Virus record (IMG/VR): IMGVR_UViG_3300042390_000674
Location: 1-24,736 of that record
Source: a virus
Strand: one strand, 5' to 3'
Length of the DNA: 24,736 bases
In this document: positions 980 through 24,736 of the stretch, piece after piece
How positions within the stretch are numbered: position 1 is the first letter of the stretch
Layout: every line of letters starts with the position of its first letter
Made by a program: the position numbers and the translations under genes
Notes under the pieces: generated by a model
Told to the model about the DNA's origin: nothing
Seen by the model: only the letters and a program-made list of their open reading frames with translations
Databases searched by the model: none

Positions 980-1359
980 GCGGGGCGCCCGACCCTCGGG
1001 TCTCGCCTCCCATCGGCCACGCGATCAAGGCGGCTCCAGACCTGTCCGACCCGAAGGTGGTCCGGCTCGCCCGTCGCATGTACTTCAGCCGCTTCGCTGA
1101 CCAGGTGACCGAGGCCGGGATCGAGGCAGAGGACGGGCTTCAAGAGGTGCTCTTGCGTTTGTTCCTGAAGTCGCAGTCGCCATCGAGGTGGAACCCCGAA
1201 CGGGGCGGGCTGACGACCTGGCTGTTCGTCGCGACCGGGGGGGTCGTGCTCAACATGATCGACAAGCACCGACGGTTCGTGAGGCGGGCGGGCGAGGTCT
1301 GCAACGAGGGCGATGCGGCGTGCATGGCTCGTGCGGTTGAGGCCACTGGCGACGAATAA
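976..1359 (+). CDS. Sigma-factor region 2-like protein, lacking region 4
   Basis: This is a 127-residue protein starting at GTG 976, which overlaps the previous stop as GTGA; an in-frame GTG at 970 is an alternative. The middle reads EAEDGLQEVLLRLF, then a fdPerG-like NPERGGLTTWLF segment, then NMIDKHRRFVRR. That order (acidic-Asp-Leu-Gln-Glu, then Gly-x-x-x-x-W, then Asn and basic residues) is typical of sigma-70 family region 2, which contacts core RNA polymerase and the -10 element. Nothing resembling region 4 follows. Stand-alone region-2-type late sigma factors are known, for example T4 gp55. It is the last gene before the packaging genes and before the first CGGTAYCAC motif, so it could switch on late transcription. 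The assignment rests on pattern only. Confidence 0.55.
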   Translation: MSGAPDPRVSPPIGHAIKAAPDLSDPKVVRLARRMYFSRFADQVTEAGIEAEDGLQEVLLRLFLKSQSPSRWNPERGGLTTWLFVATGGVVLNMIDKHRRFVRRAGEVCNEGDAACMARAVEATGDE

Positions 1360-1534
1360 AGCGACATAGACACGCAGAAAGGTGTGTGTGAGGCCTTGAC
1401 AGGTGCCCATGCCCCCTCATCGGTACCACCAAGGGGGTGTGAGAACGGTCGGACCCCCCACCCGGCCTACGCACGTCGAGCCTCGCGCGCGAGCTCTCGA
1501 AAAAAACCGCCAAAGTTCAAGGAATTGACACCCC
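1360..1534 (+). promoter_or_regulatory. Intergenic control region ahead of the packaging/head genes
   Basis: This 175-base gap has several signals. TTGACA is at 1396-1401, with no good -10 hexamer 16-18 bases later. The CGGTACCAC motif is centred at 1422-1429, between CCCCCT (1412-1417) and AGGGGG (1432-1437), which can pair. A perfect 12-base palindrome CTCGCGCGCGAG lies at 1482-1493, followed by a run of A residues (1500-1506). AAGGA at 1519-1523 is a ribosome-binding site for the terminase gene. The gap probably carries the promoter and/or terminator at the boundary between the 1-1359 genes and the late genes. Confidence 0.5.
1422..1429 (+). promoter_or_regulatory. CGGTAYCAC motif, copy 1
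   Basis: GGTACCAC preceded by TC, 62 bases after the stop of the sigma-like gene. It lies in the loop of a potential CCCCCT/AGGGGG hairpin. It is the first of seven same-strand intergenic copies. Confidence 0.6.
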
Positions 1535-2158
1535 ATGAGACGGTCACGCCTTGACAAGTCCTCGTCGTCTGTGCGTCGGGCCGCCGTCGAGAAGGCTCTG
1601 CGAGAGCGCGGGTGGTCCGAGGTCGTCGTCGAGTCGCTCATCGCCGAGACCGGGTCCAGCCGGGCCACCCTCTACCGGGACCGCGACGAGATCGCGAAGG
1701 TGCTGGCGCAGGAGGAGACCGCCGGCCTGCCCGAGCGCCGGGCCCTCTTCCTCAGCGACCTCCGCCGCATCCGCGACGGGTCGCACGTCGACGGGGCGTA
1801 CAGCGCCACCGCCCGCCTCCTCGACATGGAGGCCAAGATCCTCGGGCTCGACCGCGTCCCGCTCCCCGAGGTCGAGGCCGAGAAGGAGGGCGAGCTCGAC
1901 ACGTCGCTTGAGGGCGTGCTCCTCGAGGTCCGCAAGCTCCGGCGGCAAGCGCAGGCGGGGCACTCCTACGTCGCGGCCGACAAGCTCCTCGCCCGTGAGC
2001 ACGAGCTCGTCATGTCCATCCGGCAGCGTGACGAGGCGATCCGCGCCGCCGAGCTCGCCCACCTCAACGAGGAGGGGCTCATCGACATGATCATCGCCAA
2101 CGTCGCGACCCTCCCCGACACGCTCCGGGCTCGACTCCGTGAGGCCCTCGGGGAGTAG
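1535..2158 (+). CDS. Terminase small subunit
   Basis: This 207-residue protein probably forms the DNA-recognition part of the packaging motor, binding the phage pac or cos site and handing DNA to the large subunit. Residues about 20-55 form a helix-turn-helix (RERGWSEVVVESLIAETGSS, then RATLYRDRDEI). The central ARLLDMEAKILGLDRVPLPE segment is typical of phage small terminases, and the C-terminal half is helical and charged, as in oligomerising small terminases. ATG 1535 has AAGGA about 11 bases upstream. The gene lies directly before the large subunit, the usual order. A DNA-binding regulator is the alternative, but the position makes terminase much more likely. Confidence 0.85.
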   Translation: MRRSRLDKSSSSVRRAAVEKALRERGWSEVVVESLIAETGSSRATLYRDRDEIAKVLAQEETAGLPERRALFLSDLRRIRDGSHVDGAYSATARLLDMEAKILGLDRVPLPEVEAEKEGELDTSLEGVLLEVRKLRRQAQAGHSYVAADKLLAREHELVMSIRQRDEAIRAAELAHLNEEGLIDMIIANVATLPDTLRARLREALGE

Positions 2159-2218
2159 CAGTCCCGGCCCTACCCACCCAACGCCGGGCACGGGTAGGAA
2201 CCGGACACGAGCGCAGCC

Positions 2219-2226
2219 GGTACCAC
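2219..2226 (+). promoter_or_regulatory. CGGTAYCAC motif, copy 2
   Basis: GGTACCAC preceded by CC, ending five bases before the GTG at 2232 that may start the large terminase. Flanking GCCG/CGGC can pair around it. Confidence 0.6.
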
Positions 2227-2231
2227 GGCGC

Positions 2232-3704
2232 GTGACAGCTCCCCCCCGGGCCATGCTCCTCGCTCTCCTCCGCGGCACCGGCGGCCTCGTCGAGCACGTC
2301 GCGCGCCACCCGCTCGACTACTCGCGGTGGACCGAGCCCCAGGAGGAGTACCTCACCAACCGGTCGAACCGGAAGCTCCTCCGCATCGGCAACGGCGGCG
2401 GGAAGTCCCGCGTAGCCCTCGCCGACGTGGTCATGCGCGCCCGCAAGTCACACCCGTTCCGCCCCGATTGGAACGCCCGCCGGGGCCCGACGAAGCAGTG
2501 GATCACGACGGTGACCTGGTCGCAGGCCGTCCCGCTCATGCAGATGCTCCGCTCGTTCCTCGGCGAGGGGGAGCTGGCGAAGGCGCCGAACTGGGACCCC
2601 GCGAAGGGGTGGGGCAAGGATTCGCCCGTCCTCGTGTGGCCCGACGGGTCGACGGTGGGGTGGCGCACCTCCAACCAGGGCCCGCTCGCGCACGCTGGCG
2701 CCGAGCTCGACCACATCCTGATCGACGAGCCGGTGGCCGCCGAGACCTACCGCGAGCTCGAGCGGCGTGTGGCCCGCCGCGGCGGTGACCTCTCCCTCGC
2801 CATGACGCCGATCAACTGCCCCGGCGACATCGCGTACCTCCGCGACCTGTGCACCGAGGGCATCGTCGCGGACCTAAACTTCCCGATGAACGAGCGGCTC
2901 TTCCGCTACACCGACGGCGACATCCGCAGGCTCCCCGACGGTACGCCCTGCGATGCCACCTGGATCGCGGAGCAGATCCGGCAGGTGCTCCCGGCCTACC
3001 GCGACATCGTCATCAACGGCGGGTGGGACGAGATCACCGTCGACGGTCGCTTCACGGACGCCTTCAGCCGCTCTCGCCACGTCGCCGAGTTCCGCCTCGA
3101 CGGCTCCGAGGTGCTCTCTCTCGGGACGGACCACGGATCCCAGGCCTTCACGGAGACGGCGGTGCTCGTCGCGGTCGACCAGTCGAAGGAGTACCCGCAC
3201 ATCTACATCCTCGACACCTACGAGGCGCAGCGCGACAGCCCCGCCGATGCCGACGCGCGGGCCATCCTCGAGATGCTGGCGCGTCACGGGAAGCGCTGGG
3301 GGAGCCTGAAGCACGTCACCGGCGACATCGCCCACTACGGCGGGCGCGGGCGCATCAACCGCAAGAGCAACCAGGAGCTCGCCTACGAGATCGCGCGCGA
3401 GCTCCAGCTCGGGCGCAACGCGTCACTCGTCCCGCCCATCCGGACGGCGAAGACGGGCGCCGGGGCGGGCCCCCGCGGGTCGGTCTACCGCGGCACGTCC
3501 TGGCTCTACCGGGCGCTCCTCCGCGAGGGCCACGTCACCGTCCACCCCCGGTGCGTCTCGCTCATCAAGGCCTTCGAGAACTACAAGGGCGGGAGCACCG
3601 ACGAGCACGGCCACCTGGTCGACGCTCTCCGCTACGCCCTCGACCCGTGGATCAACCGGGGGCAGCAGCGCAACGTCCCGAGCGCCACGGTGGTGGTGGG
3701 GTAG
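2232..3704 (+). CDS. terL: Terminase large subunit (packaging ATPase and nuclease)
   Basis: This 490-residue motor pumps DNA into the procapsid and cuts it. With the GTG 2232 start, the Walker A loop GNGGGKS is at about 53-59 and the Walker B strand ILIDEP at about 161-166. An RNase-H-like nuclease half follows, with candidate metal-binding aspartates D300 (in GTDHG), D328 (in ILDTYE) and D464 (in HLVDALRY). All key residues are present and the length is normal. I prefer GTG 2232 because it lies five bases after a CGGTACCAC motif, the same spacing as the portal gene. ATG 2253 is the alternative; neither has an obvious Shine-Dalgarno sequence. Confidence 0.93.
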   Translation: MTAPPRAMLLALLRGTGGLVEHVARHPLDYSRWTEPQEEYLTNRSNRKLLRIGNGGGKSRVALADVVMRARKSHPFRPDWNARRGPTKQWITTVTWSQAVPLMQMLRSFLGEGELAKAPNWDPAKGWGKDSPVLVWPDGSTVGWRTSNQGPLAHAGAELDHILIDEPVAAETYRELERRVARRGGDLSLAMTPINCPGDIAYLRDLCTEGIVADLNFPMNERLFRYTDGDIRRLPDGTPCDATWIAEQIRQVLPAYRDIVINGGWDEITVDGRFTDAFSRSRHVAEFRLDGSEVLSLGTDHGSQAFTETAVLVAVDQSKEYPHIYILDTYEAQRDSPADADARAILEMLARHGKRWGSLKHVTGDIAHYGGRGRINRKSNQELAYEIARELQLGRNASLVPPIRTAKTGAGAGPRGSVYRGTSWLYRALLREGHVTVHPRCVSLIKAFENYKGGSTDEHGHLVDALRYALDPWINRGQQRNVPSATVVVG

Positions 3705-3711
3705 GGCACTC

Positions 3712-3719
3712 GGTACCAC
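3712..3719 (+). promoter_or_regulatory. CGGTAYCAC motif, copy 3
   Basis: GGTACCAC preceded by CTC, seven bases after the terL stop and exactly five bases before the portal ATG at 3725. No Shine-Dalgarno sequence is seen in this 20-base gap. Confidence 0.65.
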
Positions 3720-3724
3720 GGGCG

Positions 3725-5338
3725 ATGTCGACCCACATGCTGGCGCCCCCGCTTCCCGCCAACCCGGTCGAAGCGCAGCGCGTGGAGCACACCCGCCTCC
3801 GCCGGCGCGTGCTCTACTCGATGCACGAGGGCGACGTGCGCGCCCGGCTCTCCGAGGCCGTGGGCCCCACCCGCGCGCAGGCGTGGAAGCTCACGGACAT
3901 GACGTCCAACCCGGCGTGGTACGTCTGCTCTCAACTCGCCGCGCTTCACCGCGAGACCCCCGAGGTCACGCCCCCCGACGGTGGCGAGGACGTGGCCGCC
4001 TCGGTCTCCGAGTCGGGGTTCTGGCAGCTCGCGCAGCGCGTCCAGCGCGACACCATCGGGCTGAACGACCTGTTCGTGCGGGTCGACATCGACCCCGAGA
4101 CGAAGGAGCCCGGCTACCGGCTTGTCCCGCCCGACCTGGTCGAGATCATCACCAACCCGTTCGCCCCCTCCCAGCCGCTCGCGATGAAGGAGTGGATCCA
4201 GGACCCCGACAACGCCGGGCAGTGGGTCCAGCTCGTGACCGACCCGCGCGAGGCGCTCTACATGGCCCTCGACGCGGAGGGCATCGACGTGTCCGCCCGC
4301 GTGCTCAAGGGCGACTTCCGGGGCGAGGCCTACCCCTGGTTTGTCGGCGGCAAGCCCGTGCTTCCCTACATCGGGTACCACGCCGCCGAGACCGGCTACG
4401 CGCTCGAACCCTACGGTGGGCGCGAGGTGTTCGAGGGGTCCCTACAGCTCGGCGTCTACTACAGCTTCTTCGGCCACATCCTCCGCAACGCCGCGTGGGG
4501 GCAGCGCTGGATCCTCGGCGCCGAGCCCGTCGGCGGCGATGTCGACGAGGACGGCCGGCGGAGGGAGATCGTGGCCGACCCCGCCACCCTCCTCGTGCTC
4601 CGGCAGATGGAGGACGCCGCGGGCCAGGCGCAGGTGGGACAGTTCGCGCCCCCGGTCGACCCCGACCGCATCCTCGCCGCGATCGAGCGCTACGAGCAGC
4701 GCGTGGTCGAGATGGCGCTCTCGACGGTGGGCGTGTCCCGCCGCGAGTCTGACGTCCGCTCCGCCATGTCCCTCGCCGTCTCCCGCGAGGCCCAGCGCGA
4801 GGCGCAGCGGGCCTACGAGCCCGTGTTCCGCCGCTCCGACATCCGCCTCCTCCGCCTCACCTCGGGCCTCATGGGCGGCCCGGTGGACGGCTGGCGCATC
4901 CAGTACAAGGGCGCCCCGCGCGACTCCATCGAGCTCGACGCCGAGCTGACCCGGATGCAGGGGCAGATCGCCGCGGGCCTCCTCGACAAGGTCACAGCCT
5001 ACCAGCAGCTCCATCCCGGCCTCCTTCGCGACGAGGCGGAGGCTGCCGTGAAGACGATCACCGAGACGAACCGCCGGCTCTCTGGCGGCGCGATCGAAGT
5101 GGTGACCGGCGCCCCCGCCGCCGATGCGCCCGCCCCCTCGGCCATGCCCACGATCGCGCTCACCTCCACGGACATCGCCTCCATCGTGACCGTCGACGAG
5201 GCCCGCGCCTCCCAGGGGCTCCCCCCGATCGGCGGCACGGACGGAGCGCTCACCGTCGCCGAATTCCAAGCGAAGAACGCGGCCGTGATCGCCGCGGCCG
5301 CCAACGCCACCGCCGGAACCCCGACCCCGACCCCGTAG
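3725..5338 (+). CDS. Portal protein
   Basis: This 537-residue protein should form the dodecameric ring at the capsid vertex through which DNA enters and leaves and to which the terminase and neck bind. It sits directly after terL and before the scaffold. Its architecture is portal-like: a mixed N-terminal region, a VPPDLVEIITNP segment, a long helical middle (DPDRILAAIERYEQRVVEMALSTVGV, residues about 315-340), helical SREAQREAQRAYEPV, and a C-terminal VDEARASQGLPPIGG segment common at portal ends. The tail ends in alternating Thr-Pro. The ATG at 3725 starts MSTHML. The frame continues upstream without a stop inside terL, but that stretch is an out-of-frame shadow. Confidence 0.88.
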   Translation: MSTHMLAPPLPANPVEAQRVEHTRLRRRVLYSMHEGDVRARLSEAVGPTRAQAWKLTDMTSNPAWYVCSQLAALHRETPEVTPPDGGEDVAASVSESGFWQLAQRVQRDTIGLNDLFVRVDIDPETKEPGYRLVPPDLVEIITNPFAPSQPLAMKEWIQDPDNAGQWVQLVTDPREALYMALDAEGIDVSARVLKGDFRGEAYPWFVGGKPVLPYIGYHAAETGYALEPYGGREVFEGSLQLGVYYSFFGHILRNAAWGQRWILGAEPVGGDVDEDGRRREIVADPATLLVLRQMEDAAGQAQVGQFAPPVDPDRILAAIERYEQRVVEMALSTVGVSRRESDVRSAMSLAVSREAQREAQRAYEPVFRRSDIRLLRLTSGLMGGPVDGWRIQYKGAPRDSIELDAELTRMQGQIAAGLLDKVTAYQQLHPGLLRDEAEAAVKTITETNRRLSGGAIEVVTGAPAADAPAPSAMPTIALTSTDIASIVTVDEARASQGLPPIGGTDGALTVAEFQAKNAAVIAAAANATAGTPTPTP

Positions 5339-5357
5339 ACCCGAGAGGACACCCCCC

Positions 5358-5918
5358 ATGGCTGAACCCGAGACCCGCGAGCCCGTACCCTACGAGCGCT
5401 TCCAGACCGTCGTGAGCGAGAAGAACACCCTGACCGCCGAGATCACCACGCTCCGCGGCGAGGTCCAGAAGCTGACCGAGAAGGCCGCGACCGTCGACAC
5501 GCTCTCCACCGAGGTCACCCGCTGGAAGGGCGAGGCCGAGGCCGCCGCCGGCCGCTTCAACACCTTCACCGAGATCTCTGGCGCGCTCGGGTCCAACGAC
5601 CCCGACGTGATCGCCGCCTTCGACGGCAAGTACAAAGCCCTCCCCGAGAAGGACCGCCCCACACGCGCCGCGTGGGTCGAGGCCCTGAAGGCGAAGCCCG
5701 AGGACGCCCCCGGCGTGCTCCGCCCGTGGCTGACCCCCGCGCCTGGCGCCAAGGGCCCCGAGCCGAAGCCGGCCCCCCGCAACCCGGCCGCGCCCAGCTC
5801 GCCCCCCAACGCCCCGGCCGCGATCGTCGGCGCCGAGGTGGCGCGCATCAAGGCCACCTGTGTGAAGACGGGCAACTGGGAGCCGTGGAAGGCCTTCAAG
5901 AAGGCCAACGGGCTCTGA
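5358..5918 (+). CDS. Capsid scaffolding protein
   Basis: This 186-residue protein lies between portal and major capsid, the standard scaffold position. Residues about 15-70 form a charged coiled coil (QTVVSEKNTLTAEITTLRGE and following). A Pro/Ala-rich linker (about 130-155) follows, then a short basic C-terminus ending WKAFKKANGL. That plan of helical rod, flexible linker and basic capsid-binding end is typical of phage scaffolds, which guide procapsid assembly and are then lost. ATG 5358 has a strong ribosome-binding site, GAGAGGA (5343-5349). This is the only gap of comparable size in the head region without the CGGTAYCAC motif. Confidence 0.82.
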   Translation: MAEPETREPVPYERFQTVVSEKNTLTAEITTLRGEVQKLTEKAATVDTLSTEVTRWKGEAEAAAGRFNTFTEISGALGSNDPDVIAAFDGKYKALPEKDRPTRAAWVEALKAKPEDAPGVLRPWLTPAPGAKGPEPKPAPRNPAAPSSPPNAPAAIVGAEVARIKATCVKTGNWEPWKAFKKANGL

Positions 5919-14861: not shown

Positions 14862-17800
14862 TGAAGCTCCAACCCCTCGGCGACCTCCGCGGCGTCCTCA
14901 TTCCCGACGCGGGTACGCTCACCGCGGCCTACTCGGCCACCTCCCAAGCCGGCCCCCGCGCGGGCCCGGTGGTCCCAGACCAGACGACGGGCCTGCTTCT
15001 CCACGCCAGCGGCGCGCTCGACGCGTCGAGCGAGGCGGCCCAGGGCGTCACGATGGGGATCACGACGCTCACGGGCGGCGGTGTCGGCACAGGCGCGATC
15101 CGGTGGGCGTTCAGCGGTGACACTTTGCGGAGCTGGGATCCGCCGGTGATGCTCGCGGGCTGGGAGTACATCGACCGGTCCACGGTGGCCTCGCGCTACG
15201 TCGCGCCTCACGTCATCCGGCGCGCGTCCACCGGCCTCCCCGTCGCCGTCGTGACCAAAAACACTAACGACGTCGTGGTCAACATGGCGGACAATCGGGG
15301 CATCTGGACCGCGGCGACTGTCGAGGCCACCACCGCACAGACGCGGGCGTGCCTTGTCGACCTGCCGAGCGGGCGCCTCCTCTGCCTCTACGTCGTCGCG
15401 GCCTCGAGCTCCTCGACGCAGGTGCGGATGGCATACTCGGACGACGACGGCGCGACGTGGGCGGTGGGCGCGAGCTCGGCGCTCGGGTCGTCAATCGGGG
15501 TGGCGTCGAGCGCGGTGGTCCGCATCCGCGCGGTCTACCTCGCCGGGCAGATCTCCATGTTCATCCACTACGTCACGGCCGGCGCCGACTTCGTGTTCCA
15601 GCTCGCGAGCTCCGACGGGGGATGCCGGTTCGTCGGCATCGTCGGCGATGTCTCCAGCGGCTACCCCGACATGGTCGTCAGCCAGGGCTCGATCTTCCTC
15701 TCGCTGCTCCGCTACAGCGCCGCGTACACGCCGGTGACGGTCCAGCCCTACGTCTACCGGCTGTCGTCGGCTTCGCAGCCGATCTCATCGGTTGAGGGCG
15801 TCCAGGCGGGGACGGCCGCGGGCTCCGAGGTCTTCGGCACCTTCGCCGCGGGCGTGTTCACGGCGGGCGAGCTCGCGCTACTCGCGATGGATGACGGCAC
15901 GCTCTACGTCTACGGCGTGGACTTCGCGGGCACCGGCACCGGCGAGGTCATCACGCGCGTGAGCATCGACAGGGGCGCCAGTTGGGATCACAACTTTCGC
16001 AATAGCCACGGCGACGTCAACGGGACGGTGCTCCACTTCTCGGGCATCAACACCACGGCCTGGCGCGACCTGTCGGTAGCGCCCGAGCGCGGACGTGCCA
16101 TCATGGCGCACGCCACGATTGGCACGTCGACCGGCGACTACACGAGCCTCGCCGCTGCCTACCTCGGCGGCTGGTCGACGGTGGGGATGCCGGCGCCGGG
16201 GAGTCAGGAAGCATGGGAAGTGGCCGGCTGGGATGACACCTACGTCCCCATCGACCTTCCCGACGACTCGGGCCCGACGTGGACGCGTAGCTTCACCGGC
16301 GCGGCGACCGAGACGCTCGGCTCGGGCGGCGTGACGGTGAGTTGCATCGGCACCGACCGCGGGCAGTACCTCGCGACGCCGGCGACCACTGGCTACGAGG
16401 CCGACGGCGTGATCCTCGAGTACGCGGTTGTCGTCACCTCGGGCACGGCGAGTGCCGAGGTGCGGATCTCCGACGGCACGAACGCCTACATCACCCGCGT
16501 CGACGCGACGACGACCTCCGTGGAGCTCCGCGACGTGACGGCGGGCACGCTCGTCGGGACTGCGGTGACCGTCGACTGCACCAAGGGCGTCGTGATTCGC
16601 ATCGCGGTAGGGAAGGCCTCGGGCGCGTGGTCTACCAACGTGGGCAAGGTCCGCGCGTGGGTGCGCCTTGAGGGGCCCTACGGCAGCGGCTTCGTCAACC
16701 ATGGCCCTCGCCAGGACCGCGAGTGGACGTCCCTCGGCACGACGAGCACGCTTCAGTCGGTCGCCAGCGGCACCAATCGGATCCGCTGGGGCTCTGTGCC
16801 TCTGCCCTGCACTTCGACCTGGCGCCAGTTCGTCTTCTCGGCGGGCCGCGAGGCTGCAGGCAACATCCTTGCCAGCCCGGCCGGGACCTCCCGAGGCCAC
16901 CTCATCCCCCCCGTCGGGAGCCCCGTCCACCTGGTCGACGGCCTCCGCGTCCACGGTGTCGACGGGCCGACGGTGGCCGGTGACACGTTCACGACGACGG
17001 CCGCCTTCTCGTATCCAGTCGCGGCGATCAACCCCGCCGTGTCCCCCTCGCCGCGGCGTGTGTGGCGCTCGACGCTGGACACGGTGCAGCAGGACATCAT
17101 CCTCACGGGCGTCGACCTCGGCGCCCGCTCCGGTGACCTCTACGGGTTGTACTTGGCTGGGTGCAACTGGCGCACGGCTACCCTCTACCGGGACAGCAGC
17201 GGAACGAACAAGGTCTGTGACATCGATCTCGGCGCGAGCATGGCCGGTATGGACTTCGTCCGCAACCGCGGCCTCGTCTACCCCGTCGCCGGCGCGGGCG
17301 TCGGGATGCCCTTCTACGCGGGCGCGACGGCGCTGGAGGGCGCGACCGTGGAGTACACGTCGACGAGCGCCGGAAACCCGGTGGTGGTCCGCACGGTGCG
17401 GGCCAACACCTCGGGCGGTTGGGTCGCCAACGCGCCCGTCGGCACCTACGCGTCGACGCGCCTCGAGCTGGAGAGCTACGACGCGGCCGATCCGACGAGC
17501 GGCCTACTCACGCTGCGGATGCCCTCGGCCGTCGTCCTCTTCGACGCGATGGTCGGCACCGACACGCTCATGCTGCGGATCCCCGCCCAAGTCACGCCCG
17601 ACGACTACATGACGATCGGCACGATGATCGTCGGGCGCGTCCGCCTCTTCGGGCGGCAGTACAGCCGCGGGCGCGGGCTCACCTTCAAGCCAGCCTACGA
17701 GCTCGCCGAGACGCGCTCGGGCGCCCGGCGGGGGCGCGCCCTCGGGCCGACTCGACGCGCGATGGAGATGGCGTGGGACGACGGCGTCGACACGACTGGG

Positions 17801-18139
17801 CTGCACACCCCCGGCACGGCGCCCGACTACTACGGCCTCGGCTACGCCGGTGCCGACGGCCTCACCGCCATCGCGGACACGCCGCGGACGCTCGCGGGCA
17901 TCATCGCCGAGACGGACGGCGCGGTCCTGCCGGTGGTCCTCCTGCCCGCCATCCGGCAGCAGTCGAGCGCACCCGGTACCACCGGGCTCCAGCTCCTCGA
18001 TCCCGAGGCGCACCTCTACGGGCGCGTGATGACGGAGACGCTCCGGGTGGACGCGTCGAGCTCGGTGCGGGGTGACGAGCTCCGCGACCCCGGTGAGATG
18101 GTCCAGATCAGCACGGTACGCATCGAGGAGGAGGTCTGA
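14861..18139 (+). CDS. Large tail protein with sialidase-type propeller repeats
   Basis: At 1092 residues this is the largest protein. The N-terminal 400 residues contain Asp-box-like repeats: FSGDTLRSW (about 84-92), ADNRGIW (about 143-149), YSDDDGATW (about 192-200), SSDGGCRF (about 250-257) and SIDRGASW (about 368-375). These mark sialidase-like beta propellers. The middle is a jelly-roll-like, Thr/Val/Gly-rich beta domain. The C-terminal 200 residues (for example TIGTMIVGRVRLFGRQYSRG) resemble tail-tip components. It probably binds or trims a host surface glycan. The catalytic arginine triad of true sialidases was not established, so enzymatic activity is uncertain. ATG 14861 overlaps the hub stop. 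Confidence 0.75.
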   Translation: MKLQPLGDLRGVLIPDAGTLTAAYSATSQAGPRAGPVVPDQTTGLLLHASGALDASSEAAQGVTMGITTLTGGGVGTGAIRWAFSGDTLRSWDPPVMLAGWEYIDRSTVASRYVAPHVIRRASTGLPVAVVTKNTNDVVVNMADNRGIWTAATVEATTAQTRACLVDLPSGRLLCLYVVAASSSSTQVRMAYSDDDGATWAVGASSALGSSIGVASSAVVRIRAVYLAGQISMFIHYVTAGADFVFQLASSDGGCRFVGIVGDVSSGYPDMVVSQGSIFLSLLRYSAAYTPVTVQPYVYRLSSASQPISSVEGVQAGTAAGSEVFGTFAAGVFTAGELALLAMDDGTLYVYGVDFAGTGTGEVITRVSIDRGASWDHNFRNSHGDVNGTVLHFSGINTTAWRDLSVAPERGRAIMAHATIGTSTGDYTSLAAAYLGGWSTVGMPAPGSQEAWEVAGWDDTYVPIDLPDDSGPTWTRSFTGAATETLGSGGVTVSCIGTDRGQYLATPATTGYEADGVILEYAVVVTSGTASAEVRISDGTNAYITRVDATTTSVELRDVTAGTLVGTAVTVDCTKGVVIRIAVGKASGAWSTNVGKVRAWVRLEGPYGSGFVNHGPRQDREWTSLGTTSTLQSVASGTNRIRWGSVPLPCTSTWRQFVFSAGREAAGNILASPAGTSRGHLIPPVGSPVHLVDGLRVHGVDGPTVAGDTFTTTAAFSYPVAAINPAVSPSPRRVWRSTLDTVQQDIILTGVDLGARSGDLYGLYLAGCNWRTATLYRDSSGTNKVCDIDLGASMAGMDFVRNRGLVYPVAGAGVGMPFYAGATALEGATVEYTSTSAGNPVVVRTVRANTSGGWVANAPVGTYASTRLELESYDAADPTSGLLTLRMPSAVVLFDAMVGTDTLMLRIPAQVTPDDYMTIGTMIVGRVRLFGRQYSRGRGLTFKPAYELAETRSGARRGRALGPTRRAMEMAWDDGVDTTGLHTPGTAPDYYGLGYAGADGLTAIADTPRTLAGIIAETDGAVLPVVLLPAIRQQSSAPGTTGLQLLDPEAHLYGRVMTETLRVDASSSVRGDELRDPGEMVQISTVRIEEEV

Positions 18140-18585
18140 TGGCGACGACTACGGTGTGCCCTGTCGCGTGGATCCAGATCGGCAGCGCCCAAGCCGACGC
18201 GGCGGCGCGCGCCCTCATCGTCCAGGCGGGCTCGGGCGTGACGCTGACGACGACGACGACCGGGGGCGTGGCGACGACGACGATCGCGGCCTCGGGCGGC
18301 GGCGGTGGCGGCACCCCGACTGGCGCGGCCTCCGGAGACCTCGCCGGCACCTACCCGGCGCCGACGGTGACGCAGGCCCGAGGCCTTCGCGAGTCGGCGG
18401 GCCCGACGACGTTGACGATGGGCGCGGTGGCCGACGGCCAAGTGCTCAAGCGCTCGGGCTCTACCATCGTCGGCGCGTTCCTCTCGCTCGCCCTCGTCGT
18501 GTCTCAGCCCGACGCCTACGTCGCGCTTGAAGGGCTCTCCGTCGTCTACCCGTCCATCATCTCGTCCGGAGGCACCGTCGCATGA
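18139..18585 (+). CDS. Short tail-fibre-like protein
   Basis: This 148-residue protein starts at ATG 18139, overlapping the upstream stop (TGATG). Its N-terminal half is Thr/Ala/Gly-rich with low complexity and a run of Gly. The central PTGAASGDLAGTYPAPTVTQ segment matches a motif very common in phage tail fibres, typically a short trimerising linker. The rest is strand-rich (TLTMGAVADGQVLKRSGSTI). It is probably a small fibre attached to the tail tip. It overlaps the next gene at ATGA. Confidence 0.7.
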   Translation: MATTTVCPVAWIQIGSAQADAAARALIVQAGSGVTLTTTTTGGVATTTIAASGGGGGGTPTGAASGDLAGTYPAPTVTQARGLRESAGPTTLTMGAVADGQVLKRSGSTIVGAFLSLALVVSQPDAYVALEGLSVVYPSIISSGGTVA

Positions 18586-19556
18586 GTCTCGCCCCTCTCG
18601 CATGGCGCTACGTCGGAGCGCAGGCCTTCGCCAGCGCGACCGTAGCCTCTGCCCTTGACGCGCTCTACACCCTCGGGCTCAAGGTCACCTACGACGACGC
18701 GACGACGCGGACGCCGGGCTCGGGCTCGGCGTGGACGTGGTCGCGCTTCCAAAACGCCAGCGTCACGGAGGCCTGCTACGCCACGCCGCCGACTGACACG
18801 CTTGGCCTCCGTGTGATCCTCGCCGGCGCAGCCGTGGCCCCCGTGCCGGTACAGACGATGGCGGTGCCCGATGTGGCCGCCGCGGGAACCATGCACTGCA
18901 ACGTCGTGAAAAACGCCGGTGCGTTCGCGTCGTGGAACGCGGCTTCACCCTTCACTTCTGGGCAGACGTTCGGGTATTGGCGCGTGTGGGCCTCGGCGTC
19001 CGGGGCTGGCACCGTCCGGCTGTACGAGGGGACCGAGGCGGTCCTCGTGCTGATCTCGACGGGCGGCGGCAGCATCTACGGCGTGTTCCTCGGCGCCCTG
19101 CTCGACCCCGAGAGCCCCGACGTAACGAGCGATGCCGAGAGCGATGGCAAGCTCTACGGGATGATCACCTCGGGCATCGCGACCGCCATCAGTAGCGCGA
19201 TGAACACGGCCACCGCGTTCCTGGACCATTCGGTCACCGCAAGCCAGAATCACGCCGGTCTATTTACGCCCAGCGGAAGCGCCCTTCTCACCATGAACCG
19301 CCGCGCCCCCGCCAATAACGCGTTGACGACGACCTCGCTGAAGACGCGCTCAGGTCGGTACGTCCGCGCGCCCTACGATTACAGGTCGACGGCCGCCGCA
19401 CCCAACGACGCGTCACTCGGCCGCCTTCGAGAGGTCAGTATGTTCGCCGATGGGAAGACCGGGACTCGGCTGATTTCGGGCGCGACCACCATCGGCTACC
19501 TCGTCAGCGGCTCGACTTCAATCGACCAGGACGCCATCATCCTGGCGCACGCATGA
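18582..19556 (+). CDS. Tail appendage protein, probably virion-exposed
   Basis: This 324-residue protein starts at ATG 18582, overlapping the upstream stop as ATGA. It is Ala/Ser/Thr/Gly-rich, consistent with a beta-structured fibre or receptor-binding protein. The first 150 residues look like a beta sandwich (TFGYWRVWASASGAGTVRLY). A Gly/Asp linker follows, then helical-to-strand segments (GMITSGIATAISSAMNTATA) and a short C-terminal domain ending DQDAIILAHA. No enzyme motif is visible. Its place after the fibre-like gene supports an adsorption role; the exact function is not recognised. Confidence 0.62.
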   Translation: MSLAPLAWRYVGAQAFASATVASALDALYTLGLKVTYDDATTRTPGSGSAWTWSRFQNASVTEACYATPPTDTLGLRVILAGAAVAPVPVQTMAVPDVAAAGTMHCNVVKNAGAFASWNAASPFTSGQTFGYWRVWASASGAGTVRLYEGTEAVLVLISTGGGSIYGVFLGALLDPESPDVTSDAESDGKLYGMITSGIATAISSAMNTATAFLDHSVTASQNHAGLFTPSGSALLTMNRRAPANNALTTTSLKTRSGRYVRAPYDYRSTAAAPNDASLGRLREVSMFADGKTGTRLISGATTIGYLVSGSTSIDQDAIILAHA

Positions 19557-19756
19557 GCCCGGCCGTCGCCTGGGTCGCAGCCCTCGCCGCCGAGGGCCAC
19601 ACTCCCGTCCGCATCGAGGCGCCGGGCGTCCATCACGCCGATCTCATCGCGGCTGGGTACGCGCCCGAGTCGGAGCGCGACGGGCGAGCCGGCCACATCG
19701 TCGTCACTGACACGAACGTCGCCGAGTGGGCGGCGAACCTGCCGGAAACGTGGTAG
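19553..19756 (+). CDS. Small unknown protein at the end of the tail module
   Basis: This 67-residue protein starts at ATG 19553, overlapping the upstream stop as ATGA. It begins with a short helical stretch (AVAWVAALAAEGHTPVRIEA), has HHADLIAAGYAPESERD in the middle, and ends with a Trp. No family is recognised and the single hydrophobic stretch is too short to be a clear membrane helix. Coupling to the appendage gene suggests a tail-associated or fibre chaperone role. Confidence 0.55.
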   Translation: MSPAVAWVAALAAEGHTPVRIEAPGVHHADLIAAGYAPESERDGRAGHIVVTDTNVAEWAANLPETW

Positions 19757-19778
19757 TCTTGCGCGTGCGAGGTTGACT

Positions 19779-20090
19779 ATGCCTAACGACGCTCCCGCTT
19801 GGTACAGCAAAGCTTTCCGGGTCGAGGGCCCCGCCGGCATCCTCGCGATGCTCCTGTCCAGTGGAGTACTCGGCGCGACCGCAGCGGGCGGCGTCGGGGC
19901 CTACACACGCGACGGCGACCTTGCCGCGGTGGACGCTCGCGTAGATGCGCGCATGGGCGCGGTAGTCGAGCAGCTCCGGCGCGAAGCCCAAGTGGCGACC
20001 GAGGCGACCGAGGCCCTCGCTGGCGTGCGCTACGAGGAGATCTTGCGCCGGCTCGACAGGATCGAGAGGCGGTTGGACACGACGCCTTGA
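19779..20090 (+). CDS. Holin-like membrane protein with coiled coil
   Basis: This 103-residue protein starts at ATG 19779 with GAGG about eight bases upstream; a TTG at 19773 is an in-frame alternative. Residues about 17-43 form one hydrophobic segment (PAGILAMLLSSGVLGATAAG and following). The rest is a charged coiled coil (VVEQLRREAQVATEATEALA, later YEEILRRLDRIERRLD). One membrane helix plus a cytoplasmic coiled coil, in a small gene after the tail fibres and before a DUF5675 protein, fits a holin or accessory lysis protein. Other small membrane proteins cannot be excluded. Confidence 0.55.
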   Translation: MPNDAPAWYSKAFRVEGPAGILAMLLSSGVLGATAAGGVGAYTRDGDLAAVDARVDARMGAVVEQLRREAQVATEATEALAGVRYEEILRRLDRIERRLDTTP

Positions 20091-20551
20091 CCCCGCCCAC
20101 CCTCCGCATCCGCGTGACCCGCGACGAGCCGCACGACGCCGGCACGCTCGGCGTCGTCGAGCTCGACCTCCCCGACGACGGGGCCGGCTGGATGCCCTTC
20201 GGCTACTGCTCCGAGGACGTTGACCGGCGCCTCGAGGTCGATCCCCGGATGAAGATCCCCGGGCAGACCGCGATCCCCACGGGCACCTACGCGGTGCGCC
20301 TCTACCACAGCCCGAAGCACGGCCCGGACACCCCCGAGCTCGTCGCCGTCCCCGGCTACCAGCACGTCCAGATCCACAGCGGCAACGGCGCACGCGACAC
20401 GCTCGGGTGCCTCCTGTTCGGGCTCGGGCGCGACATCGGCGCGGGCATCGTGACGCGGAGCCGGCCCGCCTGCGCGTGGATCCGGGGCGAGATCGCCCGG
20501 GTCATCAAGGCCGGCGGCACGGTGACGGTGGAAGTCCGGAGGGCGGCATGA
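20087..20551 (+). CDS. DUF5675-like protein, candidate lysis factor
   Basis: This 154-residue protein starts at TTG 20087, overlapping the upstream stop as TTGA. It shows the DUF5675 pattern: IPTGTYAVRL at about 64-73, then VPGYQHVQIHSGN, then DTLGCLLFG, with His97 and Cys108 in the conserved H-x-G-N ... G-C arrangement. DUF5675 proteins occur in phages and some secretion-associated loci. The His/Cys spacing recalls L,D-transpeptidase-like folds, but enzymatic activity is my inference. It lies after the holin-like gene where an endolysin would be expected, and I see no conventional lysozyme, amidase or peptidase in the window. Confidence 0.7.
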   Translation: MTPPTLRIRVTRDEPHDAGTLGVVELDLPDDGAGWMPFGYCSEDVDRRLEVDPRMKIPGQTAIPTGTYAVRLYHSPKHGPDTPELVAVPGYQHVQIHSGNGARDTLGCLLFGLGRDIGAGIVTRSRPACAWIRGEIARVIKAGGTVTVEVRRAA

Positions 20552-20766
20552 CCAACCCCGACCGGTCCCAGCTCGCCGCCCTCGGGCGCCCCGTCGCCGT
20601 CCCCGGCGTCCACTTCCCGAGCGCGAGCGACGACGAGGCCCTGGGGCGCCACCTCCGCGCCGACGCAGCCGAGGACCTCGACGCGCTCCGGCGCGTGAGC
20701 GATGCGGCGATCGGGGACGAGCTCTTCCGGCGCCGTGAGGCGCGCACCCCGACAGGAGCGACATGA
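20548..20766 (+). CDS. Small unknown protein
   Basis: This 72-residue protein starts at ATG 20548, overlapping the upstream stop as ATGA. It is charged, with a short Pro/Val-rich start (GRPVAVPGVHFPSASDDEAL) and a helical second half (DLDALRRVSDAAIGDELFRR). There is no membrane segment or known motif. Position in the lysis-like cassette suggests a late accessory role only. Confidence 0.55.
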   Translation: MTNPDRSQLAALGRPVAVPGVHFPSASDDEALGRHLRADAAEDLDALRRVSDAAIGDELFRRREARTPTGAT

Positions 20767-21068
20767 CCCCCACCGATCGCCGCGCCCACCGCGCCGCCCG
20801 CATCGCCCACGCCCGCACCCGTCTCCCCGCGCGGTCCTGGCTCCGCGCCCGCATCGAGCCGCTCATCCTCGCCGGCCAGTCCGACGACCAGGTGGCGCGC
20901 CAGATCGCCACCGCCCTCGACGGCCTCTTCGCGCTGGACCGGCTCATCCCCGGCCCCGTGGGGCAGCTCGCCGAGGCGGTCGACGGGGACATCCTCTACG
21001 CCGTCGCGCTCCCGATCGTGAAGGGCGCGCGGCGCGCGATGGTCAAGGCGCAGATCGTGCACGCGTAG
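20763..21068 (+). CDS. Small unknown protein, last gene of the rightward module
   Basis: This 101-residue protein starts at ATG 20763, overlapping the upstream stop as ATGA. It has a strongly basic N-terminus (RRAHRAARIAHARTRLPARS), an amphipathic middle and a moderately hydrophobic segment (GDILYAVALPIVKGARR) that may be an amphipathic helix rather than a membrane span. No family is recognised. It is followed by an inverted repeat and the attP-like region. Confidence 0.55.
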   Translation: MTPTDRRAHRAARIAHARTRLPARSWLRARIEPLILAGQSDDQVARQIATALDGLFALDRLIPGPVGQLAEAVDGDILYAVALPIVKGARRAMVKAQIVHA

Positions 21069-21073
21069 GGGGC

Positions 21074-21098
21074 AACCCTCAAGGAATTCGTGAGGGTT
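21074..21098 (+). terminator. Inverted repeat behind the late genes; possible terminator
   Basis: AACCCTCA (21074-21081) and TGAGGGTT (21091-21098) are perfect complements around a nine-base loop, six bases after the final stop. There is no following T run, so it is a weak intrinsic terminator; it could also be part of the attachment region. Confidence 0.45.
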
Positions 21099-21102
21099 CG
21101 GG

Positions 21103-21288
21103 GTGTGGGAAGACCGTGGGAAGACCGGGGCACGAATGGCCGTGGAGCGGCAATCCAGGCCAGCCAGAACCGCCGCTAAGTGCCCGTCATTACCCGCGAA
21201 CCGCAGCCGAGCCGCACAGGTATGCCCTGTTCCAAGATCCGCATCAACAGCGGATCGTAGAGCGGTGTGGGAACGAGTGTGGGAAGAC
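21103..21288. other. Candidate phage attachment site (attP) region
   Basis: Four same-direction repeats flank this region. On the left are GTGTGGGAAGACC (21103-21115) and GTGGGAAGACC (21116-21126). On the right are GTGTGGGAAC (21265-21274) and GTGTGGGAAGACGG (21277-21290). They look like paired arm-type integrase sites. Between them lies a 7-7-7 inverted repeat (21236-21256). The region sits immediately beyond the 3' end of the integrase gene, the classic place for attP. No tRNA fragment is recognised in it. Confidence 0.62.
21236..21256. repeat. Candidate att core: 7-base inverted repeat with 7-base spacer
   Basis: GATCCGC (21236-21242) and GCGGATC (21250-21256) are perfect complements around the seven-base spacer ATCAACA. 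Tyrosine recombinase core sites have this form, with the spacer as the strand-exchange region. Neither strand has a T run after the repeat, which argues against a plain terminator. Confidence 0.58.
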
Positions 21289-21310
21289 GGCCGGGGCCGC
21301 GTGTACCGCT

Positions 21311-22504
21311 TTACGACGACGTGAACGGGAGCACGGCCCCGAGCTGCGCGCGGGCCACAGCTCGCCGCTTGTCGTCGAGGCTCGGGCGCCGGTAGCGTCG
21401 GGCGGCCTCGGCGGCGGAGTGTCCCTGCACGCTCGCCCCCGTCGCCGGCTCCACGTCCGACCGGCCCATCTCGTCCGTGGCCCACCGGCGAATCGCGTGC
21501 GACGTGAAGCGCCCCTCGGCGAGCCCCAGTCGAGCGGCGACCCGAGCGCAGGCGGCGGGTAGGAGCTTCATCGTGCGGCTCACCGCGGTGACGGGCTGGA
21601 CCCCGAGCACCCACCGCGCGCGGATGTCGAGGGGCATCTGCCGGCGGCCCTGCCCCTTCGGGTCCTCGGTGCGGTCGCGCCAGGTGCGGAGGGCCTCGGC
21701 CACCTCGTCGCCGATCGGTACCTCGCGCTCGCCCGTCTTCGCTGCCCCCGCGTGCCGCCCGAGGGAGAGGTAGGGCATCGGCCCGAGCCGGCAGTCGGCC
21801 CACTCCAGAGCGGCGATCTCGCCCACGCGAGAGCCCGTGGCGTACATGAGCCAGATCAAGAGCCCGTAGCGGGGCGGGAGCTCCTCGATGAGCGCAAGGA
21901 TCTCCTCTCGCGCCGGGGTGCGGGTGGGTCGCTTCGGGCGGGCGGCGAGCGGCTTTGGCGAGAGGATCGGGCACGTCGTCCACCGCTTCTGCCGGGCGTA
22001 CTTCAGGACCATCTGGAGGACCGAGACGTCATCGTTGATCGTCTTCGTCGCGTGTCCCGCGGCGGCCCGAGCGAGCGCGTAGTCCTCGATCGCCGTCTCC
22101 TCGAGCGCGTCGAGGACCAGGTCCCCGATCGTGCCCTCGCGCTTCCGGGAGATGAGCCGCCGCACGCTCGCGGTGTAGGCGAGGAGGGTGCGCGCCGTGA
22201 TCTGGTCGGCCTCCATCTCGCTCGCCTTCCGCCCGAGCCAGAGCTCGGCGGCGTCCCGGATCGTGTAGCCGCTGGACTCCCGAGCCGCCGGCGCCGCCGC
22301 GAGGTGGTCAGCTACCCACCGGATCGCCTTCGCCTCGATCTCGGCGTGCGTCCCGCGCCCGAGCACGGGCTTCTGCTTCTCGCCCTTGACGCACGAGTAC
22401 CCCCTCCACCACCACCGCGCGTCCTTCTCGGTCGGCTCCCGCTCGGGGTAGACGGTCAGCGGGCCGACGACGATCGGATCGGGCTTGCGGGGAGGGCGGG
22501 CCAT
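21311..22504 (-). CDS. int: Tyrosine integrase
   Basis: This 397-residue site-specific recombinase would integrate the phage at the host attB and, with an excisionase, remove it. The catalytic set is complete: Arg226 in TGSRVGEI, Lys256 in AAKTGERE, His336 and Arg339 in SHAIRRW, His362 in GHSAAEA and the nucleophile Tyr371 in ARRYRRP. The N-terminus has an arm-binding-like domain (WWWRGYSCVKGEKQKP), then a core-binding helical domain (SGYTIRDAAELWLGRKASEM). ATG 22504 is used. It is the last gene of the leftward operon, and its 3' end faces the candidate attP. Confidence 0.93.
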   Translation of the reverse strand: MARPPRKPDPIVVGPLTVYPEREPTEKDARWWWRGYSCVKGEKQKPVLGRGTHAEIEAKAIRWVADHLAAAPAARESSGYTIRDAAELWLGRKASEMEADQITARTLLAYTASVRRLISRKREGTIGDLVLDALEETAIEDYALARAAAGHATKTINDDVSVLQMVLKYARQKRWTTCPILSPKPLAARPKRPTRTPAREEILALIEELPPRYGLLIWLMYATGSRVGEIAALEWADCRLGPMPYLSLGRHAGAAKTGEREVPIGDEVAEALRTWRDRTEDPKGQGRRQMPLDIRARWVLGVQPVTAVSRTMKLLPAACARVAARLGLAEGRFTSHAIRRWATDEMGRSDVEPATGASVQGHSAAEAARRYRRPSLDDKRRAVARAQLGAVLPFTSS

Positions 22505-22531
22505 CTCAGGAGGCTACGCGCCGACCGGCGC

Positions 22532-22789
22532 TCAGTCCACCGATACTCGACGTGCCCGGTCGACCGGCGGGCGTCTCGGAGGTGCGGCCACGAGCTGGGC
22601 GCCGTCCCGCTCCCGCTTGAGCGCCGCGTTGATCTCGCCGACCTCGAAGCGCAGCCCCGCCCCCGGCGTCGGAAGCGCGAGCCCACGCGCCCGAGCCCAC
22701 GCCAACGCCTTCTCCCGGCCGCAGCCGAGGTGGCGGGCGAGCTCGTCGTCCGTGAGGAGGTCGCGATCTCCGAGGCCGCGGGGTGCCAT
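22532..22789 (-). CDS. Excisionase-like helix-turn-helix protein
   Basis: This 85-residue protein starts at ATG 22789, two bases after the upstream stop. Residues about 11-58 (LLTDDELARHLGCGREKALA, then WARARGLALPTP, then LRFEVGEINAALKRE) match the winged-helix excisionase/MerR-type DNA-binding fold (helix-turn-helix, then a wing, then a basic helix). The C-terminus is Pro/Arg-rich. It lies directly upstream of the integrase and is probably a recombination directionality factor or a regulator of the operon. Confidence 0.68.
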   Translation of the reverse strand: MAPRGLGDRDLLTDDELARHLGCGREKALAWARARGLALPTPGAGLRFEVGEINAALKRERDGAQLVAAPPRRPPVDRARRVSVD

Positions 22790-22791
22790 GG

Positions 22792-23226
22792 CTACGGCAT
22801 CCCCGACACGATCTCAGACGCCATCCGCTCCCCACGCGCCCGAGCCTTGATGAGCTCACGCAGCCGCTCCACCTCGTCCAGCAGCGCCCCCACGTCCATC
22901 CGATACGCCGCCTGCCAGCCGGTGCCGGTGGCGCGGGAGAGCACCTGACGGATGCCGGTGAGGTCGAGGGATGCGACGGCGGGGGGCCCCTCGTCAATGG
23001 CGACGACTTCGGCGCCGGCCATGACTGCGCGCCACCATTCGACGGACTCGCGACATGCGCCGCGCTCCCCGTCGACGATGGTGGTGTAGGTCCAGCTTAC
23101 GAGCCACCCAGATACATCCAGCACGGTCGCCTCGTAGCCGGGAAGCCCGTACCGGACGACGTCGCCCGCCCGCGGATCCACCCGAGGATCGCGCCCCTCA
23201 ACATCGGCGGGGGTGGGGCGGGTCAT
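22792..23226 (-). CDS. Unknown phage protein with a small beta domain
   Basis: This 144-residue protein starts at ATG 23226, chosen because it overlaps the upstream stop as ATGA. The frame extends further upstream but only as a shadow of the neighbours. The first half looks like a small SH3-like beta domain (DPRVDPRAGDVVRYGLPGYE, then SWTYTTIVDGERG) followed by CRESVEWWRAVMAGAEVV. The second half is a coiled coil (DVGALLDEVERLRELIKARA). Related small proteins occur in phage early regions. No function is assigned. Confidence 0.65.
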   Translation of the reverse strand: MTRPTPADVEGRDPRVDPRAGDVVRYGLPGYEATVLDVSGWLVSWTYTTIVDGERGACRESVEWWRAVMAGAEVVAIDEGPPAVASLDLTGIRQVLSRATGTGWQAAYRMDVGALLDEVERLRELIKARARGERMASEIVSGMP

Positions 23227-23576
23227 GGCGCACTCTCCAGGGCGGCGACCAGGGCCTCGGCTTCGGTGGTGTGATAGCCGCCAAACTCGCCACCGTCCCC
23301 GATTAGCGACCACATCCGCCCGCCGTTCAGGATCCCAACAAACTGGCAAATGGCGCCAACGCCCTCGTCTTCGCACACCTCCCGCACCAACGCGAGGAGA
23401 CAGCCGAGCGTGGCGGGGTCGGCCAACACCGGGAGTACCTCGGCTCCCGCGTACCAAGGCCAGTTCTCCCCCACGCGAGCGCGCCACGCGCCGTCCGCGA
23501 GGAGCATCCCCGGCATCCATCGCCAGCCCTTGCAGGCGACGGCGCGGCGGGAGAGGGCGATCTGCTCTTCGGTCAT
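23223..23576 (-). CDS. Unknown phage protein with a KGWRWMPGM motif
   Basis: This 117-residue protein starts at ATG 23576, overlapping the upstream stop as ATGA. It has the segment KGWRWMPGMLLADG near residue 15, then a DPATLGCLLALVREVCEDEG segment and a C-terminal GGYHTTEAEALVAALESAP. This pattern is familiar from many small phage-encoded hypothetical proteins, but their role is unknown. No transmembrane segment or catalytic motif is visible. Confidence 0.68.
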   Translation of the reverse strand: MTEEQIALSRRAVACKGWRWMPGMLLADGAWRARVGENWPWYAGAEVLPVLADPATLGCLLALVREVCEDEGVGAICQFVGILNGGRMWSLIGDGGEFGGYHTTEAEALVAALESAP

Positions 23577-23773
23577 GGCTTCTCCTCGCGGCGGTGCTCG
23601 CCGCTCTTGATTCGATCCGCACAGAACGACATCCAAGGATCCCCGCCGTCTTCAGCCCATCGCTCCAAAGCGGCCCCCACGGCGGCGCGCTCTTCCTGTG
23701 TCGCCATCTCCACGATGCGGGGCAGCGCATCCACAAGCGCATCCAGGGCTTGCACCATCACCGACGCGCTCAT
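23573..23773 (-). CDS. Small acidic unknown protein
   Basis: This 66-residue protein starts at ATG 23773, overlapping the upstream stop as ATGA. It is helical (VMVQALDALVDALPRIVEMA, then QEERAAVGAALERWAEDGGD) and ends in basic residues. No family is recognised. Translational coupling on both sides supports it being real. Confidence 0.6.
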   Translation of the reverse strand: MSASVMVQALDALVDALPRIVEMATQEERAAVGAALERWAEDGGDPWMSFCADRIKSGEHRREEKP

Positions 23774-23982
23774 GACCGCAGGCTCCAGAGGTTGACGACC
23801 CCGCGGCCCATGTGGCGCGTGCGGGGGACGGTGACGCACTCGGCGATGCCGAGCAGGTAGAGGGCGCGGAGAGCGCCGCACGCCTGCGCGGTGCTCACGC
23901 CGATGGCTTCGGCGACCTCGGCAGCGGGGCTACTCGGCTCGGCCGCGAGGTAGTCGCGGGCTCGGGCGCGGATGGTGGTCAC
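23770..23982 (-). CDS. Small winged-helix DNA-binding protein
   Basis: This 70-residue protein starts at GTG 23982, overlapping the upstream stop as GTGA. The helix-turn-helix is clear: ARARDYLAAEPSSPAAEVAE, then AIGVSTAQACGALRALYLLG, followed by a wing with TVPRTRHMGRG and a final LWSLRS strand. This is the layout of small MarR/ArsR-like transcription regulators. It may regulate the leftward operon or lysogeny, but no operator can be assigned. Confidence 0.7.
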   Translation of the reverse strand: MTTIRARARDYLAAEPSSPAAEVAEAIGVSTAQACGALRALYLLGIAECVTVPRTRHMGRGVVNLWSLRS

Positions 23983-24185
23983 GCCGGCACCGTGCCCAGC
24001 AGCGCCGCCCGGACCTCGGCCCCGTCCGCCGTCAGGATCCACCGCCCCGCCGGCCGGGTGGTGGTCGGCCGCATGGACGCCAGCCCGAGCGTGCCCGCCT
24101 CGGCCCACAGCGCGGACGAGGGGGCGAGGTGGGGGGCGGCGAGGGCGTCGCGGAGCTCGGGGGTGAGGCGGGAGAGGCGGATCAC
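23979..24185 (-). CDS. Small unknown protein, winged-helix-like ending
   Basis: This 68-residue protein starts at ATG 24185, overlapping the upstream stop as ATGA. The sequence (MIRLSRLTPELRDALAAPHL, later RPTTTRPAGRWILTADGAEV) has a helix, then a strand-like wing and a Thr-x-x-Gly element often seen at the end of winged-helix domains. That similarity is weak, so I leave the function open. Confidence 0.55.
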   Translation of the reverse strand: MIRLSRLTPELRDALAAPHLAPSSALWAEAGTLGLASMRPTTTRPAGRWILTADGAEVRAALLGTVPA

Positions 24186-24601
24186 GACAGCGCCCCGCCG
24201 ACGTACCCGCCGCGCCCGGCGGCGAGGGCGTCCTCGGCCGCTTCGGCGCGGGCGACTACGTCGTGGTAGTCGACCTCAAAGGCTTTGACGCCAGCAAGGA
24301 CGCCGCGGATGGCTTTCAGCTCGGCGAGCTCGCGGAGCAGCTCGGCGTCGTCGTGTACCTCGAGAAGGCCGAGTTCCTCGCGGATGGTCCCGACGAGGTC
24401 TCTGAGCTGGTCACGCTCGGCGGCGAGGGCGCGCACGCTGTCCCCCTCCTCGAGCTTGTCGTATGGGTCGACGCCGGCCTCGTCGAGGGCCGCGAGCACG
24501 TCGTACAGGCGAGCCTCGAAGCCCGCGGCCTCCTGTCGCCAGAACTCAACAGTGGCAGCGCCACCCGGGGGGATCGTGACGCCCGATTCAGCCCGCCTCA
24601 C
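24182..24601 (-). CDS. Coiled-coil protein of unknown function
   Basis: This 139-residue protein starts at GTG 24601, overlapping the upstream stop as GTGA. It is almost wholly helical and acidic (VRALAAERDQLRDLVGTIRE, then AELLRELAELKAIRGVLAGV), with a short Gly-rich end. It may oligomerise. No DNA-binding motif or membrane segment is visible. It is co-directional with the integrase genes. Confidence 0.62.
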   Translation of the reverse strand: MRRAESGVTIPPGGAATVEFWRQEAAGFEARLYDVLAALDEAGVDPYDKLEEGDSVRALAAERDQLRDLVGTIREELGLLEVHDDAELLRELAELKAIRGVLAGVKAFEVDYHDVVARAEAAEDALAAGRGGYVGGALS

Positions 24602-24736
24602 GCCGCCACCGCCAAGTCAGCGCGGCCCGACTCGCTCAGGCGGTAGCGGGCGGGGCGATGCCCGTCGCTCACCAGCCAACCCTCGGCGGCGAGGCGGCTC
24701 ACGAAGCGGGCGATGGAGGACTCGGAGAGGCCGGAG
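24598..24736 (-). CDS. Winged-helix protein, N-terminus beyond the right edge
   Basis: The frame enters from the right edge and ends with TGA at 24600-24598, overlapping the next gene's GTG. The last 45 residues show a helix-turn-helix and wing: SESSIARFVSRLAAEGWLVS, then DGHRPARYRLSESGRADLAV. This is a recognition helix followed by a wing and a strand with Thr/Ser-x-x-Gly spacing typical of MarR-like regulators. It is the first visible gene of the leftward operon. A full-length reading is needed to name it. Confidence 0.62.
   Translation of the reverse strand, partial: SGLSESSIARFVSRLAAEGWLVSDGHRPARYRLSESGRADLAVAA

Follow-up and report, generated by a model that had tools for sequence, protein, structure and literature searches.

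The window analysed here, the whole stretch of 24,736 bases of viral DNA, contains an intergenic region of 242 bases between an upstream gene on the plus strand, which ends at 21068, and an integrase gene on the minus strand, which ends at 21311. A GTGTGGGAA repeat occurs in this region as two tandem pairs, together with a perfect inverted repeat of two seven-base arms around a seven-base spacer (7-7-7). The first-pass annotation had placed both kinds of repeat directly after the integrase gene, and on direct reading its coordinates were correct and the site lies just beyond the 3' end of int (Table 1).

Table 1. Features of the probable attachment region and the adjoining genes (coordinates are those of the window).
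Feature	Position	Strand	Basis or remark
8-9-8 inverted repeat, possible transcription stop	21074..21098	.	just past the upstream gene's stop; without T run
Left tandem pair, arm-type repeats (GTGTGGGAAGAC, CGTGGGAAGAC)	21103..21125	+	motif also adjoins integrases elsewhere
Block conserved with relative G004 (29/42)	21176..21217	.	alternative core place or accessory site
Perfect 7-7-7 inverted repeat, candidate core	21236..21256	.	imperfect extension 21227-21265, 12/16 per arm
Right tandem pair, arm-type repeats (GTGTGGGAACGA, GTGTGGGAAGAC)	21265..21288	+	direct reading, motif count, simulation
Tyrosine integrase, 397 aa	21311..22504	-	PF00589, PHROG integrase, conserved columns, fold like Tn1549 and lambda Int
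Small helix-turn-helix protein, candidate excisionase	22532..22789	-	HTH_17 below cut-off; PHROG excisionase E 0.007

Tandem repeats beside an intact integrase gene

By direct reading, the left pair is composed of GTGTGGGAAGAC (21103-21114) and CGTGGGAAGAC (21115-21125), the latter being an incomplete copy with GTGGGAAGAC in common, whereas the right pair is composed of GTGTGGGAACGA (21265-21276) and a second GTGTGGGAAGAC (21277-21288). The element common to all units, GTGGGAA, starts at 21105, 21116, 21267 and 21279, with a spacing of 11-12 bases within pairs and 162 bases from pair to pair. When both strands of the window were searched, these four copies were the only ones found, all of them on the plus strand and within a single 186-base stretch. 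Among 1000 simulated first-order Markov windows, none contained four GTGGGAA in 200 bases, and none contained even two in 20 bases. A chance clustering of short repeats would accord with the inverted repeat, which by itself falls within chance expectation for a GC-rich window, but it fits neither the lack of any close GTGGGAA pair in the 1000 simulations nor the reappearance of the motif at the integrases of other phages, and its probability is close to nil. The GTGGGAA direct repeats are a real signal, far from chance, and they flank the inverted repeat as two tandem pairs, as had been described from the first reading.

The adjoining gene encodes an intact tyrosine integrase, with a PF00589 match above the cut-off, PHROG integrase matches, and the catalytic residues R226, H336, R339, H362 and Y371 all in conserved alignment columns. 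Over about residues 79-370, the model of this protein resembles both Tn1549 Int (Z 17.9) and lambda Int (Z 16.3). Its first 70 residues are predicted, with low confidence (pLDDT about 45-60 for 11-69), to form strands followed by a helix, and a Pfam profile search returned no arm-binding domain match in the integrase. No relatives of the integrase were detected in the phage or plasmid records searched, and those in 398 Pseudomonadota genomes were limited to distant, short matches. The small helix-turn-helix protein encoded just upstream of int is plausibly an excisionase, judging from its profile matches.

A second viral record, IMGVR_UViG_3300042371_001057 (G001), starts with a sequence identical to window 17242-24736, and its end matches window 1-5860 with 99.95% identity, the integrase being 100% identical. 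As this record overlaps the window at both ends, the two records join into one closed genome of about 33.0 kb, which is therefore circular or permuted. The window, from 1 to 24736, is an incomplete linear cut of that genome. Because phage genes lie on both sides of the site, the arrangement is that of an attP and not of an attL or attR, and the site is intact and internal to an unintegrated phage genome.

Occurrence of the paired motif in other viral contigs

Two kinds of scan were performed across viral contigs. The first, covering 2.9 million contigs, looked for two GTGTGGGAA copies 2-5 bases apart and produced 19 loci, our own phage included. A tyrosine integrase adjoins the pair in nine of the others (L010, L012, L014, L017, L020, L022, L024, L025 and L026), with L019 being a repeat of the stretch of L020. 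Three loci (L015, L021 and L023) were rejected as att sites, as they resemble simple coding repeats, and another three (L013, L018 and L027) with no integrase nearby were left out of the count. Scans of the second kind, in which another copy had to follow the pair at a distance of 150-211 bases, added seven loci (L138-L144), with an integrase in six of the seven (L138-L142 and L144). On the other hand, a permuted control motif was found in four loci, none of them near an integrase. Spacing in the comparison loci is 11-13 bases within pairs and mostly about 190-250 from pair to pair, and their integrases are mostly less than 30% identical to that of the window.

The 3' half of a tRNA is the classic attP core. 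Such halves, identified by their T-stem, T-loop and acceptor 3' strand, were found beside or between the pairs in seven loci (L009, L016, L025, L026, L138, L141 and L144), and the T-arm of L026 was also detected independently by Rfam. Between the TGTGGGAA arms of L143 (12100-12315) the minus strand reads GMGNNPMVGATVSVAVAIAEAAKAGK, resembling a protein gene at its 3' end. This locus, around which a 2.5 kb search showed no integrase, is from its sequence possibly a non-tRNA target with the same arms. In L014 (9043-9103) the integrase gene has at its 3' end two TGTGGGAA pairs with just 28 bases between them, and the first repeat overlaps the integrase stop codon.

Operators and replication origins also show tandem direct repeats with helical spacing, and the repeats of the window could accordingly be recognised by another DNA-binding protein and not be arm sites at all. 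This is very unlikely given that, in unrelated phages, the motif adjoins integrases and surrounds tRNA 3' halves, and that a relative of the phage with a different integrase (G004) has different arm repeats. G004 has structural genes in common with the window, DNA matches and a terminase that is 81% identical, with an integrase of 26% identity to that of the window. In the same intergenic place (L033, 15960-16187) it carries GTGGCACCGGCGTGGCACGC twice, 208 bases apart and with 11-base spacing, the element of this doubled pair being GTGGCAC versus GTGGGAA in the window. The first-pass annotation had made its reading depend on the presence of the repeats near the integrases of close relatives; G004 has a doubled pair of its own, with a different motif, in the same place. 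The comparison of the two sequences suggests that integrase and arm repeats changed together in G004, which is what recognition of the repeats by the integrase would predict.

Taken across these loci, tandem TGTGGGAA pairs with 11-12 base spacing, the pairs being about 160-250 bases apart, might be an arm code that is common to many AT-rich and GC-rich phages with integrases mostly less than 30% alike, in which case attP sites, including those with non-tRNA cores such as the present one, could be found from sequence alone. We propose this generalization tentatively, considering it somewhat less probable than its opposite.

Possible positions of the core between the arms

We infer that the crossover takes place somewhere in 21126-21264. 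The inverted repeat within this interval is exact on reading, as first described, with GATCCGC (21236-21242) and GCGGATC (21250-21256) around the spacer ATCAACA. It lies 110 bases from the left pair and 8 from the right pair, in agreement with the asymmetry noticed earlier (about 110 and about 9). Perfect 7-7-7 repeats occur four times in the whole window (5.0 expected), and for one to fall within the intergenic 242 bases the probability is 0.023. If the arms are extended to 16 bases, 12 of 16 match, the seven inner ones all being perfect, a figure equalled at only one other site in the window; the extended inverted repeat is a little out of the ordinary, with a probability of about 1% in the intergenic interval.

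Two observations speak for this repeat as the core: the overlap in lambda Int recombination is seven bases long (PMC4880445), and L017, whose arms are the same, contains a perfect 7-7-7 repeat too. We regard the repeat as the leading candidate for the crossover core, with a probability just short of even. The inverted repeat of L017 (4470-4492) reads AACCCGTT GAGGCGC AACGGGTT and lies about 22 bases from one of the arm pairs, which are the same as those of the window.

The chances are evenly balanced that the site is an attP in which the crossover core occupies another part of the inter-arm DNA, such as 21176-21217 or its vicinity, the 7-7-7 repeat then being incidental or accessory. That 42-base block is common to the window and G004 (29 of 42 identical, P 0.0005), and G004 is without a comparable inverted repeat. 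In addition, a gap of only 8 bases separates the candidate core from the right arm, versus roughly 40-75 bases from the anticodon loop to the nearest arm pair in L009, L026 and L138, as read off those sites, the core of the Oenococcus IntF attP is not symmetric (PMC8074189), and the frequency of 7-7-7 repeats in the window is that predicted by chance. On the other hand, the integrase of G004 is unrelated in sequence, so that a block common to both phages may be something other than the core, the extended inverted repeat is among the two best in the window, and the L017 repeat accompanies the same arms.

The inverted repeat could also act as an RNA hairpin, for instance by stopping transcription where the upstream operon and int converge, the arms of the surrounding attP being real all the same. 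The plus strand has a strong RNA fold (z -5.3), with only 0.1% of same-GC windows reaching an equally low fold energy, and the flanking genes converge; however, a T run is absent, no terminator was called, and the upstream stop codon already has its own hairpin (21074-21098), which makes a hairpin role unlikely. The first-pass proposal of an attP with its core at the 7-7-7 repeat can thus be divided: the attP and the paired arm sites are well supported, whereas the 7-7-7 core is possible but unproven.

A search for attB with the exact 21-base repeat across 84,980 genomes gave no convincing match. Three exact 21-mer matches in bacterial genomes lie inside different protein genes and were judged to be chance occurrences. 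In the L006 and L008 matches the codons read IRINS, and in L006 the match extends over 26 bases. The arm-to-arm DNA, compared with 392 Planctomycetota and 398 Pseudomonadota genomes, produced short matches only, none of them convincing and the inspected ones in unrelated genes, and no lysogen junctions were found in the genomes searched. The attB search with core plus flanks suggested by the first-pass annotation returned no match with shared flanks. With a host that may lie outside the genomes searched, the missing attB match need not count against an attP. A search of viral contigs with TAAGTGCCCGTNATNAC gave 58 matches, many of which are one recurring related sequence, and was judged uninformative; an att layout was seen among them only in the phage of the window and in G004.

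No tRNA or Rfam RNA was found in the att region. On the minus strand of window 21176-21262, an open frame that reads LYDPLLMRILEQGIPVRLGCGSRVMTGT and then a stop passes through the inverted repeat and ends to the left of it. Judging from its sequence, this frame may represent the last part of a host gene, at its 3' end, that the attP carries; searches with it gave no match. Host gene 3' ends matching the frame would read ...RILEQGIPVRLGCGSRVMTGT.

Comparison with known attachment sites and meaning

The closest published layout found is that of the attP of temperate Oenococcus oeni phages, in which 4-6 direct repeats, each about 10 bases long, are distributed over the two sides of the core, from 2/2 to 2/4 (PMC8074189). 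As in the window, the direct repeats are divided around the core and a tyrosine integrase gene adjoins them, and the Oenococcus repeats TTTGCCACA and reverse TGTGGCAAA resemble the TGTGGGAA of the window. In contrast to the window site, which has no tRNA segment and a symmetric candidate core, the Oenococcus targets are tRNA genes, known from lysogens, and the cores, as that of the IntF attP, are without symmetry (PMC8074189). In lambda attP, as here, the core is enclosed by two arms, each with arm sites for the integrase, and the whole site takes up about 190-240 bases (PMC4880445), and its overlap is as long as the seven-base spacer of the candidate core. Unlike in lambda, one arm of the window lies just 8 bases from the candidate core, the arm sequence is different, and none of the IHF, Xis and Fis sites that lambda has between core and arms was recognised. 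The lambda-type layout claimed in the first-pass annotation holds as a general plan; no IHF-like site was found in the region at one mismatch to the E. coli consensus, which may not fit the protein of the host.

The order and orientation of L138 (IMGVR_UViG_3300034158_000052) equal those of the window, with a TGTGGGAA pair, a core, TGTGGGAA and then int on the minus strand, but the core of L138 is a tRNA 3' half and the two integrases are only distantly related. The arm-type motif in the attP of phage P2 starts with TGTGG, which it has in common with the motif of the window, and the rest of it differs. A literature search returned no phage-integration paper joining the motif of the window, or the P2-like motif, with attP.

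An attP with paired arm sites is well supported because the repeats are not a product of chance, the adjoining integrase is intact, doubled pairs are found elsewhere and phage genes lie on both sides. We conclude with high confidence that a temperate phage has its attP at 21103-21288, where the neighbouring integrase would bind the arm pairs and the core, and the site most likely follows the plan of the lambda integrase. The N-terminal domain of the integrase would bind both tandem GTGTGGGAA pairs and its core-binding and catalytic domains the core site between them, so that the protein would bridge arms and core and recombine attP with the attB of the host.

The phage, which is GC-rich and uncultivated and to which the phage records searched contain no close relative, is thus very probably temperate, and its attachment site is narrowed to 186 bases. 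Since the paired arm motif recurs at very divergent integrases, it could serve as a simple means of locating attP and predicting insertion targets in viral contigs, and one may ask what keeps the arm code so constant.
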